Origin: Patescibacteria group bacterium
GTDB lineage: Bacteria > Patescibacteria > ABY1 > JAGPKW01
Assembly: GCA_021735565.1 (NCBI GenBank)
Contig: JAIPGT010000018.1
Location: forward strand, 1-6,929
DNA: 6,929 nt
Direction of reading: 5' to 3'
The notes beneath the pieces are model-generated. The model searched no databases. It was not told the origin of the DNA and saw only the letters and a program-made list of their open reading frames with translations. This document shows, one piece after another, positions 202-5,784 of this stretch (position 1 is the stretch's first letter; every line of letters begins with the position of its first letter). The position numbers were made by a program, and so were the translations under genes.

Positions 202-245
202 AGTATAAGATGCATAAAAAATTTATTCAGTATCTTATGCACAAA
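202..245 (+). repeat. Imperfect 17-nt direct repeat carrying two in-frame ATG codons
   Basis: Positions 202-218 and 229-245 match at 13 of 17 bases (AGTAT, three differing bases, ATGCA, one differing base, AAA). They are 27 nt apart, so the ATG at 210 and the ATG at 237 are in frame and both begin Met-His-Lys. Within the same stretch ATAAGAT (205-211) and ATCTTAT (232-238) are inverted complements and could fold the start region. The true translation start may be either ATG. Confidence 0.5.
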
Positions 246-641
246 TACAATACAACACAAAACCCAAACAATCCAACATATCTAGAGAGAAGACATACCC
301 CAAAAATAAGAAAAATTTCAGATTATGAAATAGAAGTTAGTATAGATTTTGAGTTTGTAACAGATAGAAAAAAGAAAAGAAAAAAATTTCTTTATTTATG
401 TGATGAAAATGGAAGTATTATAGAAGAAAGAAAATTAAAAAAATTAGAAGAATATAAAGAGGGAAAAATAGTAGAAATATTTAATATTAATGAAATAAAT
501 AAAAGAGAAAAAGAAGAAGCAGAAATAGATGATAGGGAAGAAATACCGCATTATAGAGATATAGTAGATGATTATCACGCAATATTTCATTGTGATGTTC
601 ATGGAGATTGGGTAGATAAAGATTTTCCGTTATTATATTAG
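210..641 (+). CDS. Hypothetical protein, 143 aa
   Basis: I do not recognise a family. The product is a soluble, highly charged protein with no signal peptide or membrane segment. It has a basic patch (RKKKRKK, residues 53-59), an acidic Glu/Asp-rich stretch (about 101-121), and a C-terminal region rich in His (H114, H123, H127, H131) with C128 and W134. The His/Cys cluster could bind a metal, but this is speculation. The ATG at 210 was chosen because the promoter at 161-189 puts the transcript start near 196. The in-frame ATG at 237 (Met10) is an equally plausible start and would give 134 aa. Neither ATG has a Shine-Dalgarno sequence. The gene stands alone, with its own promoter and a terminator 11 nt after its TAG stop. 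Its base composition and AGA-type codon use match the other genes in the window, and the strong promoter and terminator support a real gene. Confidence 0.75.
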   Translation: MHKKFIQYLMHKYNTTQNPNNPTYLERRHTPKIRKISDYEIEVSIDFEFVTDRKKKRKKFLYLCDENGSIIEERKLKKLEEYKEGKIVEIFNINEINKREKEEAEIDDREEIPHYRDIVDDYHAIFHCDVHGDWVDKDFPLLY

Positions 642-826: not shown

Positions 827-902
827 GCCATTATAGCTCAGTTGGTAGAGCAACTCCCTCGTAAAGAGTAGGTCACAGGTTCGATTCCTGTTAATGGCTC
901 CA
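827..902 (+). tRNA. tRNA-Thr (anticodon CGT)
   Basis: This is a 76-nt cloverleaf. The acceptor GCCATTA/TAATGGC pairs perfectly, the D-arm is GCTC/GAGC, and the anticodon loop CTCGTAA gives anticodon CGT (reads ACG). The variable loop is AGGTC, the T-arm is ACAGG-TTCGATT-CCTGT, the discriminator is T, and the CCA is encoded at 900-902. The anticodon stem ACTCC/AGAGT pairs at four of five positions. The pair next to the loop (31-39) is a C-A mismatch, which is unusual but tolerable. The last two bases of CCA are also the first two bases of the downstream palindrome. Confidence 0.95.
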
Positions 903-946
903 TTCTACACTCTTAGCGAACAAAGTGAGCTTTAGAGTGGAGAATG
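901..946. repeat. Palindromic repeat unit 1, abutting tRNA-Thr
   Basis: Arms 901-913 and 934-946 are complementary at 12 of 13 positions (mismatch 907/940). The stem can extend a few pairs inward through TAGC/GCTT-like bases. No T-run follows, so it is not a normal intrinsic terminator. It begins inside the CCA of tRNA-Thr and could affect 3' end processing. It is the first of three back-to-back units. Confidence 0.7.
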
Positions 947-1002
947 TCATTCGGAGCTTTCTTGTTCTTTGTAGTAAATACGAAAAAGAAAGCGAAGAAT
1001 GA
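947..1002. repeat. Palindromic repeat unit 2
   Basis: Arms 947-967 and 982-1002 are complementary at 17 of 21 positions, with mismatches at 953-955 and 964, around a 14-nt loop. The unit starts at the base after unit 1 ends. Its outer ends, TCATTC and GAATGA, and its inner AAGCGAAGAATGA resemble the widespread intergenic repeats of the form GTCATTC...AGCGAAGAAT. That likeness is from memory and not from a search. Confidence 0.7.
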
Positions 1003-1008
1003 TTTATT

Positions 1009-1059
1009 ATTCGAAGCTTTAGCGAAGAATGACTATTCAAATTACGAAGAGCTTCGAAT
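1009..1059. repeat. Palindromic repeat unit 3
   Basis: ATTCGAAGCT (1009-1018) and AGCTTCGAAT (1050-1059) are perfect 10-bp inverted complements. AGCGAAGAATGA at 1021-1032 is an exact copy of 991-1002 in unit 2. The right arm can instead pair with CGAAGCT at 1083-1089 (7 bp), giving two mutually exclusive folds. The remaining bases to 1110 are GC-richer than the genome, include a run of six C at 1066-1071, and look like further decayed repeat. Confidence 0.65.
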
Positions 1060-2425: not shown

Positions 2426-2950
2426 ATGAAAGAAATATTTTATATAAAATCAAAAAAATCAAAATATTATTCAATAAGAATTGATAATAATGAAGATATA
2501 ATAGTAACAATACCAAGATTAGGAAATAAAATATTTGCTGATAATTTTTTGAAACAAAAAAAAGATTGGATAGATAAAAAAATAGAACAAAAAAAAGATA
2601 AGCCAATAAATTTATCAAAAAAAACAAAAGAAGATTATAAAAAAAATAAAAATATAGCACTTTTTGAAATAAAAGAAATAATAAAAAATTTAAATATTAA
2701 TATAGAATATAAAAATATTTATATAAAAAATCAAAAAACAATATGGGGGAGTTGTTCTAGTAATAAAAATTTGAATTTTAATTATAAAATAATATATATT
2801 CCAAAAGAATTAAGAGAATATATTATTGTTCATGAACTTTGTCATTTAAAAGAAATGAATCATTCAAAAAAGTTTTGGAATGAAGTAGAAAAAATAATTC
2901 CAGACTATAAAGAAAGAAGAAAAAAAATTAAAAATATGGTACAATTATAA
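2426..2950 (+). CDS. YgjP/SprT-like metallopeptidase-fold protein (DUF45)
   Basis: The 174-aa protein has the DUF45 (YgjP) layout. An N-terminal beta-rich part is followed by a Lys-rich linker, WGSC (residues 107-110, the conserved WGSCS signature), and a zincin helix H136-E-L-C-H140. A third likely zinc ligand, H146, sits in MNHSKKFW, with W151 after it. Zinc-dependent hydrolase activity is therefore plausible, with E137 as catalytic base; the physiological substrate of this family is not settled. The protein is shorter than E. coli-type members of roughly 230 aa as I recall, mainly in the N-terminal half. The start at 2426 was chosen over a TTG at 2366, which would overlap the recombinase gene. 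The envelope protein gene follows 33 nt downstream in the same direction with no terminator between, so the two may be co-transcribed. Confidence 0.9.
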   Translation: MKEIFYIKSKKSKYYSIRIDNNEDIIVTIPRLGNKIFADNFLKQKKDWIDKKIEQKKDKPINLSKKTKEDYKKNKNIALFEIKEIIKNLNINIEYKNIYIKNQKTIWGSCSSNKNLNFNYKIIYIPKELREYIIVHELCHLKEMNHSKKFWNEVEKIIPDYKERRKKIKNMVQL

Positions 2951-2983: not shown

Positions 2984-4327
2984 ATGAAAAAAAATAAGTT
3001 TCTAAAAATAGGAGCTTTATTTTTTGCTCTAATACTAATATTCATTGGTATATTTTCTTTTACAAAAGTTCAAGCGGACGATAACTATATAATTTTAGAA
3101 GAAAATAAAACCATAGAATCTTCATATTTTGCAAAAAGTAAAGTCATAGATTTAAAAGGGACTATAAACGGAGATGCTTTTATTATTGGAACAGATATAA
3201 AAATATCTGGAGAAATAAATGGTAATTTATTTATTATAGGAAATTCAATAGAATTAACAGGAAAAGTTTCTGGTTCTATACTTTCTATTTCTACTAATTT
3301 AGATATATCAACAAAAGAAAGAGCAAGTTCGATATTATCAATTGGAAATGTAGTAAATATAAACAGTGGTTCAAAAAATAGTGCTTATATAATATCAAAT
3401 GAAGCAAATATAAATGGATTAATAGGTAGAGATTTATATATAGCAAGTACAAATACAAGTTTAAATAATATAGTATTTAGAAATTTTGTTTTAGCGGGAG
3501 AAAAATTATATTTTGGAGAATCAGCAAACGTAAATCAAAACTTAAAATATAATATAAACACAAAAACAAACGTTAACCCAGAAGTTATAAAAGGTAAAAT
3601 AACTAAATATAATACTACTATAAATCACTTTAATTTTAATAAAGAATCAAAAAATATAAAAAATTTATTAAATGGAATAACAGTAGCTAATGTATTAATA
3701 ACATTTTCAACTTTATTACTTTTAGGATTTCTTTTTGCAAAATATGCAAAAAATATTGGTAAAAAAGCCTCTGAAAAATATATGAATGAATTTGGAGATA
3801 ATTTACTTATAGGGTTTCTAACATTATTATTATTTCCTATTGCCTTTATATTATTAACATTAAGTATATTTGGAATAAATATAGCACTATTTTTGCTTCT
3901 AGGATTTATTTTCTTATTTGCTTTTGCTTACATATTTTCTGCAATGAGTATAGGATTGTTTATAGAAAAAATGTTATTTAACGATGATAATTTATATATA
4001 GCAGTATTTATTGGTGCTATATTATTTCCGATGATTGGATTTTTACCAATAATAGGAAAGATAGCAGAATTAATTTTAATATTAGTTGGAGTAGGTTGTA
4101 TCATAAAATATGATACAGAAACCCTTGGTAAATTAAATGAAGATTTAGAACCAAAAAAGAAAAGATTATTTTTTAAAAAAGAAGATAAAAAACCAAAAAA
4201 AGAAAATAAAAAAATAACTAAAAAATCTAAAAAAGAAGAAAAGCCAAAAATAAAAAAAGTTAAAAAAGAAGAAATTAAAAAACAGCCAGCAAAAAAAAGA
4301 GGTAGACCAAGAAAAAATGAAAAATAA
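2984..4327 (+). CDS. Exported bactofilin-like beta-helix membrane protein with Lys-rich AT-hook tail
   Basis: The 447-aa protein begins with a basic N-terminus and hydrophobic signal segment (residues 8-26), ending in VQA (29-31), a good signal peptidase I site. Residues about 54-180 hold some seven or eight repeats with a 17-residue period (for example DLKGTINGDAFIIG, KISGEINGNLFIIG). These are typical of the right-handed beta-helix of bactofilin, or polymer-forming, proteins. Here the beta-helix would lie outside the membrane. Hydrophobic segments at about 231-252, 273-297, 299-327, 337-356 and 357-375 then cross the membrane. The tail 391-447 has 27 Lys in 57 residues and ends in RGRPRK (439-444), an AT-hook core. 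By the positive-inside rule the tail is cytoplasmic. The likely role is envelope structure or a membrane scaffold; the exact function is unknown. The gene ends 18 nt before a strong terminator. Confidence 0.85.
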   Translation: MKKNKFLKIGALFFALILIFIGIFSFTKVQADDNYIILEENKTIESSYFAKSKVIDLKGTINGDAFIIGTDIKISGEINGNLFIIGNSIELTGKVSGSILSISTNLDISTKERASSILSIGNVVNINSGSKNSAYIISNEANINGLIGRDLYIASTNTSLNNIVFRNFVLAGEKLYFGESANVNQNLKYNINTKTNVNPEVIKGKITKYNTTINHFNFNKESKNIKNLLNGITVANVLITFSTLLLLGFLFAKYAKNIGKKASEKYMNEFGDNLLIGFLTLLLFPIAFILLTLSIFGINIALFLLLGFIFLFAFAYIFSAMSIGLFIEKMLFNDDNLYIAVFIGAILFPMIGFLPIIGKIAELILILVGVGCIIKYDTETLGKLNEDLEPKKKRLFFKKEDKKPKKENKKITKKSKKEEKPKIKKVKKEEIKKQPAKKRGRPRKNEK

Positions 4328-4344
4328 AAATATATTTTAATATG

Positions 4345-4378
4345 AGAACGGGACGAAAAAGTCGTCCTGTTCTTTTTT
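4345..4378 (+). terminator. Strong intrinsic terminator
   Basis: A 12-bp stem (4345-4356 with 4362-4373, one G-U pair) surrounds the loop AAAAG and is followed by a run of six T ending at 4378. It closes the transcription unit of the YgjP-like and envelope protein genes and insulates it from the tig operon. Confidence 0.92.
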
Positions 4379-4405
4379 AATCAAATTATAAATATTAAAA
4401 GTCGT

Positions 4406-4434
4406 TTGATATTTTTAATAAAATATGATAAAAA
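4406..4434 (+). promoter_or_regulatory. Possible promoter of the tig operon
   Basis: TTGATA (-35, 4406-4411, five of six) with a 17-nt spacer leads to TAAAAA (4429-4434), a weak -10. An alternative is TATATT (4441-4446), which would give a start about 15 nt before the tig ATG but has no -35 at the right distance. A promoter must lie in 4379-4467 because a terminator precedes it; which element is used is uncertain. An inverted repeat, TATTAAAA/TTTTAATA (4393-4400, 4413-4420), overlaps the -35. Confidence 0.35.
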
Positions 4435-4467
4435 TAAGACTATATTTAAAAAATAAAAAATCTAAAA

Positions 4468-5784
4468 ATGTCTATTCAAGTTAACAAAAAACAAGAAAAA
4501 TCCGAAATAATTTTAAATATTTCTGTTCCTTATGAAGATTATAAAAAATATATAGAAAAGTCAGCGGAAAATTTTTCAAAAAATATTGAAATAAAAGGTT
4601 TTAGAAAAGGAACAGCACCTTACGATATTGTTGCAAAACATGTTGGAGAAATGAATATATATGAAAATGCTCTAGAAGAGATAATAAATAATTCATATTA
4701 TGAAGCTGTAAAAGAAATAGGAGAAGATGTTAAATTTTTTGTAGAGCCAGAAATTACAATTGAAAAAATGGCACCAAATAATCCTATAGAATATACAGCA
4801 AAACTTATGCTTGTTCCAGAAATACAACTTGGAAAATATAAATCTTTAAATTACAAGATAAAAAATACATATAAAGAAGAAGAAATTAAAGACAAGGCTA
4901 AAAAATCTATTGATGAACTTTTAGAAATGAGATCAAAAGAAAGTGTTCAAGATAAAGCTATAGAATCAGGTGATAAAGCCACAATGAATCTAGAATTATC
5001 ACAAAACGGAGTTATTTTAGAAGATGGTCAAATAAAAGATTTTAATTCTATATGCGAAGAACAAAAATTTATTCCTGGATTTTTTAAAAATCTAGAGGGA
5101 ATGAAAGCAGGGGAAACTAAAAATTTTGAATTAGAATTTCCTAAAGATTATTTTGAAAGTAAATTAGCAGGTAAAAAAGTAAATTTTAAGTGCGAAATTA
5201 AAACTGTTTACAAAAGAGAAATGCCAGAATTAAATGATGATTTTGTAAAAACTCTTGGAAATTTCAAAAATAAAGAAGAATTTATAAAACAAATAGAAGA
5301 AAATGTAAGTCAAGAAGGTATAGAAAAAGGAAAAGAAAAAACGACAATAGAAGTATTAGAAGAAATAAAAAAGAAATCAAAAATATCAGAAATTCCAGAA
5401 AGATTAGTTAATCTTGAAGCAAAAAAAATGTTAGAAGAATTAAAAAATTCAGTTGCACAAAGTGGAATGGATTGGAATTCTTACAAAGATTCAATAAAAA
5501 AATCTGATGAAGAATTAGAGAAAGAATTTAAACCAAAAGCAAAAGAAAGAGTTATCTCAAGTTTAATATTAGAGAAAATTGGTGAGGAAGAAAAAATAAA
5601 AGTAGATCCAGAAGAAATAAAAAAAGAAATAGAACAAACTAAAAAAATGTATTCTACTCATCCAGAGTATGAAACTATAGAAAAAAATTTAAAAGATCCA
5701 AGATATATATCAAACTTAGAAAGGGTAATGAAAAACAAAAAAACAATAGAATTATTACAAAAAGAAAATATAACAAATCTATGA
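4468..5784 (+). CDS. tig: Trigger factor, ribosome-associated chaperone
   Basis: The 438-aa protein matches trigger factor in length and domain order. The N-terminal ribosome-binding domain (about 1-115) carries the signature GFRKG (44-48) with P51, the loop that docks at the exit tunnel. The FKBP-type prolyl isomerase domain (about 160-250) includes GDKATMNLE (168-176), FIPGF (201-205), GMKAGETK (211-218) and LAGKKVNF (233-240). The helical chaperone C-domain (about 251-438) begins with the conserved MPELNDDFVK. It holds nascent chains as they leave the ribosome. The ATG at 4468 gives a full-length N-terminus and no upstream in-frame extension is needed; there is no Shine-Dalgarno sequence. 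The TGA stop overlaps the ATG of the next gene (ATGA). In many bacteria tig precedes clpP; here it precedes a DUF167 gene and a helicase. Confidence 0.97.
   Translation: MSIQVNKKQEKSEIILNISVPYEDYKKYIEKSAENFSKNIEIKGFRKGTAPYDIVAKHVGEMNIYENALEEIINNSYYEAVKEIGEDVKFFVEPEITIEKMAPNNPIEYTAKLMLVPEIQLGKYKSLNYKIKNTYKEEEIKDKAKKSIDELLEMRSKESVQDKAIESGDKATMNLELSQNGVILEDGQIKDFNSICEEQKFIPGFFKNLEGMKAGETKNFELEFPKDYFESKLAGKKVNFKCEIKTVYKREMPELNDDFVKTLGNFKNKEEFIKQIEENVSQEGIEKGKEKTTIEVLEEIKKKSKISEIPERLVNLEAKKMLEELKNSVAQSGMDWNSYKDSIKKSDEELEKEFKPKAKERVISSLILEKIGEEEKIKVDPEEIKKEIEQTKKMYSTHPEYETIEKNLKDPRYISNLERVMKNKKTIELLQKENITNL

Follow-up and report, generated by a model that had tools for sequence, protein, structure and literature searches.

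A lysine-rich tail ending in an AT-hook core on a predicted envelope beta-solenoid protein of Patescibacteria, a candidate nucleic-acid contact

The window, that is, the whole stretch of DNA analysed here, comprises 6,929 nt of contig JAIPGT010000018.1 (assembly GCA_021735565.1) from a Patescibacteria group bacterium and has a GC content of 23%. The features at and around its gene for a membrane-anchored protein are collected in Table 1. The sole related locus that the genome collection yielded, L001, comes from Patescibacteria group bacterium isolate Tobar14m-G36 and is 91% identical to the window in DNA across 5.9 kb. Gene order is the same in both: xerD-like, ygjP-like, the membrane gene, tig, yggU and pif1-like, the L001 genes being named by comparison with those of the window. 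Between the membrane gene and the downstream set (tig, yggU and the gene for a Pif1-like helicase) the window has one terminator-like hairpin, where shuffled sequence gave 0.2 on average (sd 0.5), and by eye a similar sequence lies 3′ of the L001 orthologue. Because this hairpin intervenes, we set aside a coupling of the membrane gene to trigger factor.

Table 1. Positions of features at the membrane gene locus, numbered within the window
Feature	Position	Strand	Basis
YgjP-like metallopeptidase gene upstream, ending 33 bases 5′ of the membrane gene	2426-2950	+	L001 comparison sets the start
Gene for the membrane-anchored protein of 447 aa with a beta-solenoid; its homologues indicate the PF26514 type	2984-4327	+	ORF list; homologues; L001 syntenic orthologue
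Hydrophobic helix at the N-terminus (residues 4-25), probably a signal peptide	2993-3058	+	Hydropathy and AlphaFold2
Beta-solenoid domain, residues 35-209, predicted extracytoplasmic	3086-3610	+	AlphaFold2
Membrane domain, helices 222-254, 270-293, 297-332, 337-351, 358-388	3647-4147	+	Topology scoring and AlphaFold2
Lys-rich tail (residues 389-447) with a net charge of +22, predicted to be disordered and cytoplasmic	4148-4324	+	pLDDT, charge, topology
RGRPRK, AT-hook core, residues 439-444	4298-4315	+	Sequence; unique in L001 genome
Intrinsic-terminator-like hairpin and T run, separating membrane gene from tig	4344-4374	+	Shuffle control

Several further observations concern the surroundings of the gene. 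Window positions 210-641 encode a 143-aa protein without clear family match, within a stretch (2-647) that is 93% identical in DNA to L001. A tRNA-Arg/tRNA-Thr pair is flanked by short GCTTCG/CGAAG-type repeats (window 901-1030 and L001 5620-6100, by eye). L001 has an additional peptidase-like gene (4382-5590, by eye) directly before this tRNA pair, on a stretch unmatched in the window. A search of viral contigs gave no relatives, and a defence library matched neither the membrane protein nor the 143-aa protein.

An AlphaFold2 model of the membrane protein, built with 14 sequences, has a mean pLDDT of 74.6 and a pTM of 0.45, low enough that the relative placement of domains is not fixed. Within it the solenoid is predicted well (block-of-ten mean pLDDT of 85-96 over residues 41 to 210), helix 337-351 is short, and the tail (389-447) stays below 50. 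By eye, VQA before D32 may be a signal peptidase site.

Topology was scored with a custom combination of hydropathy and the positive-inside rule, the N-terminus being set inside. A hydrophobic N-terminal helix precedes the solenoid, and this scoring places the solenoid outside. The C-terminus is inside in the best-scoring topology of the window protein and of all 10 homologues scored, including six (P0006 to P0011) that have no such tail, and the preference survives deletion of the window tail (170.5 versus 156.0). Five helices after an outside solenoid put the tail inside; four, or a re-entrant one among the last two, would put it outside. On the GES scale five post-solenoid helices are found in P0004, P0013, P0008, P0010 and P0011, and four exceed the threshold in the window protein, P0002, P0003, P0006, P0007 and P0009. 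The predicted arrangement is a solenoid outside the cytoplasmic membrane and a cytoplasmic tail, and positive-inside scoring and the AlphaFold2 model here agree with an earlier sequence-only reading, which had the beta-helix facing outward and the Lys-rich tail in the cytoplasm.

Relatives were collected in two ways. A protein search, in which scoring was confined to the 7,995 candidates with the most words in common, found 12; a profile search found 11, of which P0013 and P0014 were new. Precomputed annotation assigns PF26514, which we take to be DUF8173, to 11 of the 12 protein-search relatives, among them P0001, 97% identical to the window protein, and to both P0013 and P0014; the Pfam copy scanned here returned it for neither the window protein nor P0001. 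No literature was found under the name DUF8173. By prediction, the window protein shares with proteins of this type a signal peptide, a beta-solenoid and C-terminal membrane helices.

The same reading called the protein bactofilin-like, a term that can apply to its fold at most. The core of bactofilins is a right-handed beta-solenoid, and their polymerisation is independent of nucleotides. The Bactofilin model (PF04519) did not match the window protein at E ≤ 1; P0004 scored 18.3 bits, below the cut-off of 27.9, while the distant relative P0009 does match at 39.6 bits. Foldseek gave no match in the PDB at E ≤ 0.001, and no bactofilin is among the 50 VIA matches listed, though the fold may nonetheless be that of a bactofilin; VIA matches to GlmU and LpxD had an rmsd of at least 10.6 Å and were not used. 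We do not file the window protein as a bactofilin.

Compared with canonical bactofilins (BacA, BacNOP), the window protein has the beta-solenoid in common, by prediction on its side. It differs in matching no bactofilin family model and in that canonical bactofilins are cytoplasmic, across the membrane from the predicted place of this domain, and only about 3.2% of them have membrane helices (PMC12448750). A link from bactofilins to chromosome segregation is already known. In Myxococcus xanthus, BacNOP scaffolds together with PadC position ParA/ParB of the ParABS chromosome segregation system, and PadC is bound by the disordered C-terminal extension of BacP (PMC5703909), whose KKKVVVKK motif is potentially involved in the binding (PMC12448750). 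In BacP, as by prediction in the window protein, the tail is disordered and rich in Lys at least locally; that of BacP leads to chromosome segregation through PadC (PMC5703909, PMC12448750). The claim that no bactofilin-type protein with an envelope-nucleoid role had been described overlooked BacNOP, although these act through adaptors; the window protein would differ by its outward solenoid and by a DNA grip of its own. A literature search on transmembrane bactofilins in Patescibacteria, judged by titles and opening abstract lines of the matches listed, showed no such protein.

The tail itself is as the reading had it. The last 57 residues of the protein (nt 4154-4324, with the stop codon at 4325-4327) hold exactly 27 Lys, and RGRPRK lies near the end as part of KKRGRPRK (residues 437-444), a canonical AT-hook core. 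Such a core is GRP with basic flanking residues; the extended form of the hook prefers RNA to DNA as a ligand, and binding is weak for hook peptides 5-11 residues long (PMC11354804). The arrangement is that of HMGA-type hooks (PF02178) and of bacterial WhiB7, cited in the same source, except that here a single copy, under the model cut-off, closes a membrane protein. Composition alone seldom yields it: when the 57 residues were shuffled 1,000,000 times, GRP arose in 5,021 of the shuffles, RGRP in 257 and RGRPR in 11. The Pfam AT_hook model gives 13.6 bits for the window protein (cut-off 17.4), 13.7 for P0001 and 12.9 for P0004, and hmmscan at E ≤ 1 did not report it for the L001 orthologue, P0002, or for P0003. 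A search of the L001 genome scored the P0002 gene at 17.3, or at 18.2 with its frame neighbours, marked as over the cut-off. In that genome (0.7 Mb, completeness not given) the gene is the single Pfam AT_hook match and the only place with a codon pattern for RGRPRK, the backward control giving 0. A literature search gave no papers on AT-hooks in the candidate phyla radiation, and the matches listed in others, judged by titles and opening abstract lines, include neither a bacterial membrane-chromosome tether by AT-hook nor a nucleoid AT-hook on a membrane C-terminal tail.

The tail is kept within a small clade, with exceptions. This clade comprises the window protein, P0001, P0002, P0003, P0004, P0013 and P0005, whose sequence is missing the N-terminus, and the terminal KKRGRPRKNEK is intact in five of the seven, at 46% overall identity and with a drifting linker. 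Two members depart from it, P0003 with RGISRKNEK and P0005 with a Lys-rich tail lacking GRP. With identities of 97% between P0001 and the window protein and of 88% between P0004 and P0013, the intact hooks represent about three lineages. Against the window protein, the terminal 14 residues (a block picked after seeing the alignment) match at 14/14 in P0004 and 13/14 in P0013, the linker at 16/29 and 17/30, and the solenoid at 68/177 in both. That the block matches better than the linker is a sign that selection acts on the whole end as one unit, with loss in two members.

A relative is present in two of three genomes of the order to which L001 belongs, and the syntenic one (L004, in G003; xerD-like, membrane gene and tig neighbours by eye) encodes a protein ending KFINKKV, without a tail. 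The idea that homologues keep the GRP and the Lys-rich tail stands for most of the clade and fails for P0003 in its hook, for P0005 in its GRP and for L004 in the whole tail; these three are, in part, the homologues lacking the core while keeping the rest that were named beforehand as counting against it. A search of a class sample of 380 genomes gave matches in 139 of them. We compared 31 distinct class proteins (30 from returned loci, one of them the L001 gene, plus L004). In difference from the window protein, GRP follows the last helix in only one, the L001 orthologue, and in none of the other 30; 27 of the 31 end no more than eight residues past the site corresponding to residue 380 of the window protein. 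The rest of the tails are Lys-rich without GRP in L008, acidic in L020 and a 21-residue end in L025. For the other genomes with a match, the places listed were compared with those of AT_hook matches, and the only shared place is the L001 gene. Three genomes in both lists, G022, G028 and G183, have no place listed for the match; the frames that hold their hooks measure just 74, 58 and 23 aa. In these comparisons the tail is restricted to this lineage.

Similar hooks occur on other proteins in the class. AT_hook matches at E ≤ 0.5 were found in 64 of 380 class genomes, over the cut-off in 23, versus six and none of 14 control genomes. Eighteen of the fetched loci, each from a different genome, encode an RpoA with RGRP[RK]K at its C-terminal end (L055, L065, L066, L069, L070, L071, L075, L076, L077, L079, L080, L083, L084, L086, L087, L089, L090 and L092). 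Fifteen were scanned with Pfam, all with the N-terminal RpoA domains and none with the alpha-CTD at E ≤ 0.01; the others, L076 (incomplete), L083 and L086, are RpoA by NCBIfam. As in the window protein, KRGRP[RK]K stands at or near the C-terminus of a long tail without known domain; the difference is that the carrier is a polymerase subunit rather than a membrane protein and that the linkers are, by eye, mostly acidic. The alpha-CTD contacts the AT-rich minor groove, and the hook on RpoA may replace this contact. The titles and opening abstract lines of the literature matches listed mention no AT-hook on RpoA and no alpha-CTD question in Patescibacteria.

The module is further seen in N-terminal extensions of ribosomal protein S9 (L057 by Pfam; L051, L074, L082 and L091 by eye, all with RGRP[RK]K) and on an NYN-domain protein (L040). 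Another hooked membrane protein is an FtsK (L103:827-3001) that starts MAKRGRPRK ahead of its membrane helices; the N-terminus of known FtsK is cytoplasmic. Nucleic-acid binding by the window tail is plausible because the same module stands on RpoA, ribosomal protein S9 and FtsK in the class.

Basic tails without the core are also at hand. In the L001 genome and two other genomes of its order, RpoA (L096:1483-2340, L095:1432-2289 and L094:1483-2304) has a long Lys-rich tail without GRP, and Pfam lists no alpha-CTD for the L096 protein. The protein encoded just after RpoA in the L001 genome (L17 by eye) likewise has a long Lys-rich tail and no GRP, and a Lys tail as such is ordinary in this genome. 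A small one-helix membrane-protein family of Patescibacteria, represented by L058:1228-1530 (itself without Pfam match), has by eye a basic C-terminal stretch in nearly all members. GRP lies within the last 30 residues in 6 of its 58 members, all six among the 11 closest (at least 70% identity to the query); the other five of these end in RGRKKK or other basic stretches. With only 6 of the 11 carrying it, GRP comes and goes among close relatives, much as in the clade of the window protein, where five of seven have it. Of 191 class genomes searched for an RGRPRK codon pattern, 63 contain it, and it is not enriched there (82 matches versus about 125 in the backward control, counted by hand). Many of the fetched pattern matches are in short frames, and with the lack of enrichment we dropped those outside identified genes as support.

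What the tail does can be read in several ways. We give somewhat less than even probability to the reading in which it binds nucleic acid nonspecifically, mainly AT-rich DNA, and so holds DNA near the membrane. We rate as just as likely a generic polycationic cytoplasmic end that would set the topology or attach to RNA, ribosomes or acidic lipid head groups, with RGRP interchangeable with other basic sequence. Three results put the two readings level: the pattern control, the outcome on the GES scale and the count of 6 of 11. The scarcity of GRP in the L058 family, where other basic ends take its place, and the GRP-less Lys-rich tails on RpoA and its neighbour in the L001 genome speak for the generic end, as do P0005 and L008, the Lys/Asn-rich (by eye) tail of P0012, the presence of RGRPRK also on a ribosomal protein extension and the unenriched codon pattern. 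Against it, KKRGRPRKNEK stays intact in this clade at 46% overall identity while the other basic residues move. A literature search on ribosome-binding Lys-rich tails led only to work on Alb3.

Drift without function, with A-rich codons in a 23% GC genome feeding the Lys tail and the hook kept by descent, is improbable. It would fit the instability of the tail, most class proteins ending close after residue 380, and the hook DNA is identical in the window and L001, so that synonymous change there does not discriminate. Against it, an exact 11-residue end in P0004 and P0013 at 46% identity would be unlikely without selection, and the shuffles rarely gave RGRPR. Slightly more improbable still is a tail that binds a protein partner, a suggestion drawn by analogy from the contact of BacP with PadC through a disordered C-terminal extension and its KKKVVVKK motif (PMC5703909, PMC12448750). 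No partner is evident among the products of tig, yggU and the Pif1-like helicase gene, and tig lies beyond the terminator-like hairpin.

In the tether reading, the protein would be an envelope component whose solenoid lies outside the cytoplasmic membrane and is anchored by five helices, and to which this lineage would have added a flexible polycationic cytoplasmic tail ending in an AT-hook core. The tail would bind nucleic acid without sequence specificity, AT-rich chromosomal DNA foremost, and the bound DNA would stay near the membrane beneath the site of the solenoid. A broader proposal, which we regard as doubtful, takes RGRP[RK]K as a portable nucleic-acid grip, carried by RpoA (where it would take the place of the alpha-CTD), S9, FtsK and an envelope solenoid, and the window protein as a one-protein transmembrane link from AT-rich chromosomal DNA to an outward-facing scaffold, free of ParABS-type adaptors. 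If the tail does bind DNA, one protein would connect the chromosome with a scaffold outside the cytoplasm in cells whose genomes are very small, and the terminal AT-hook would stand out as a reusable module in Patescibacteria.
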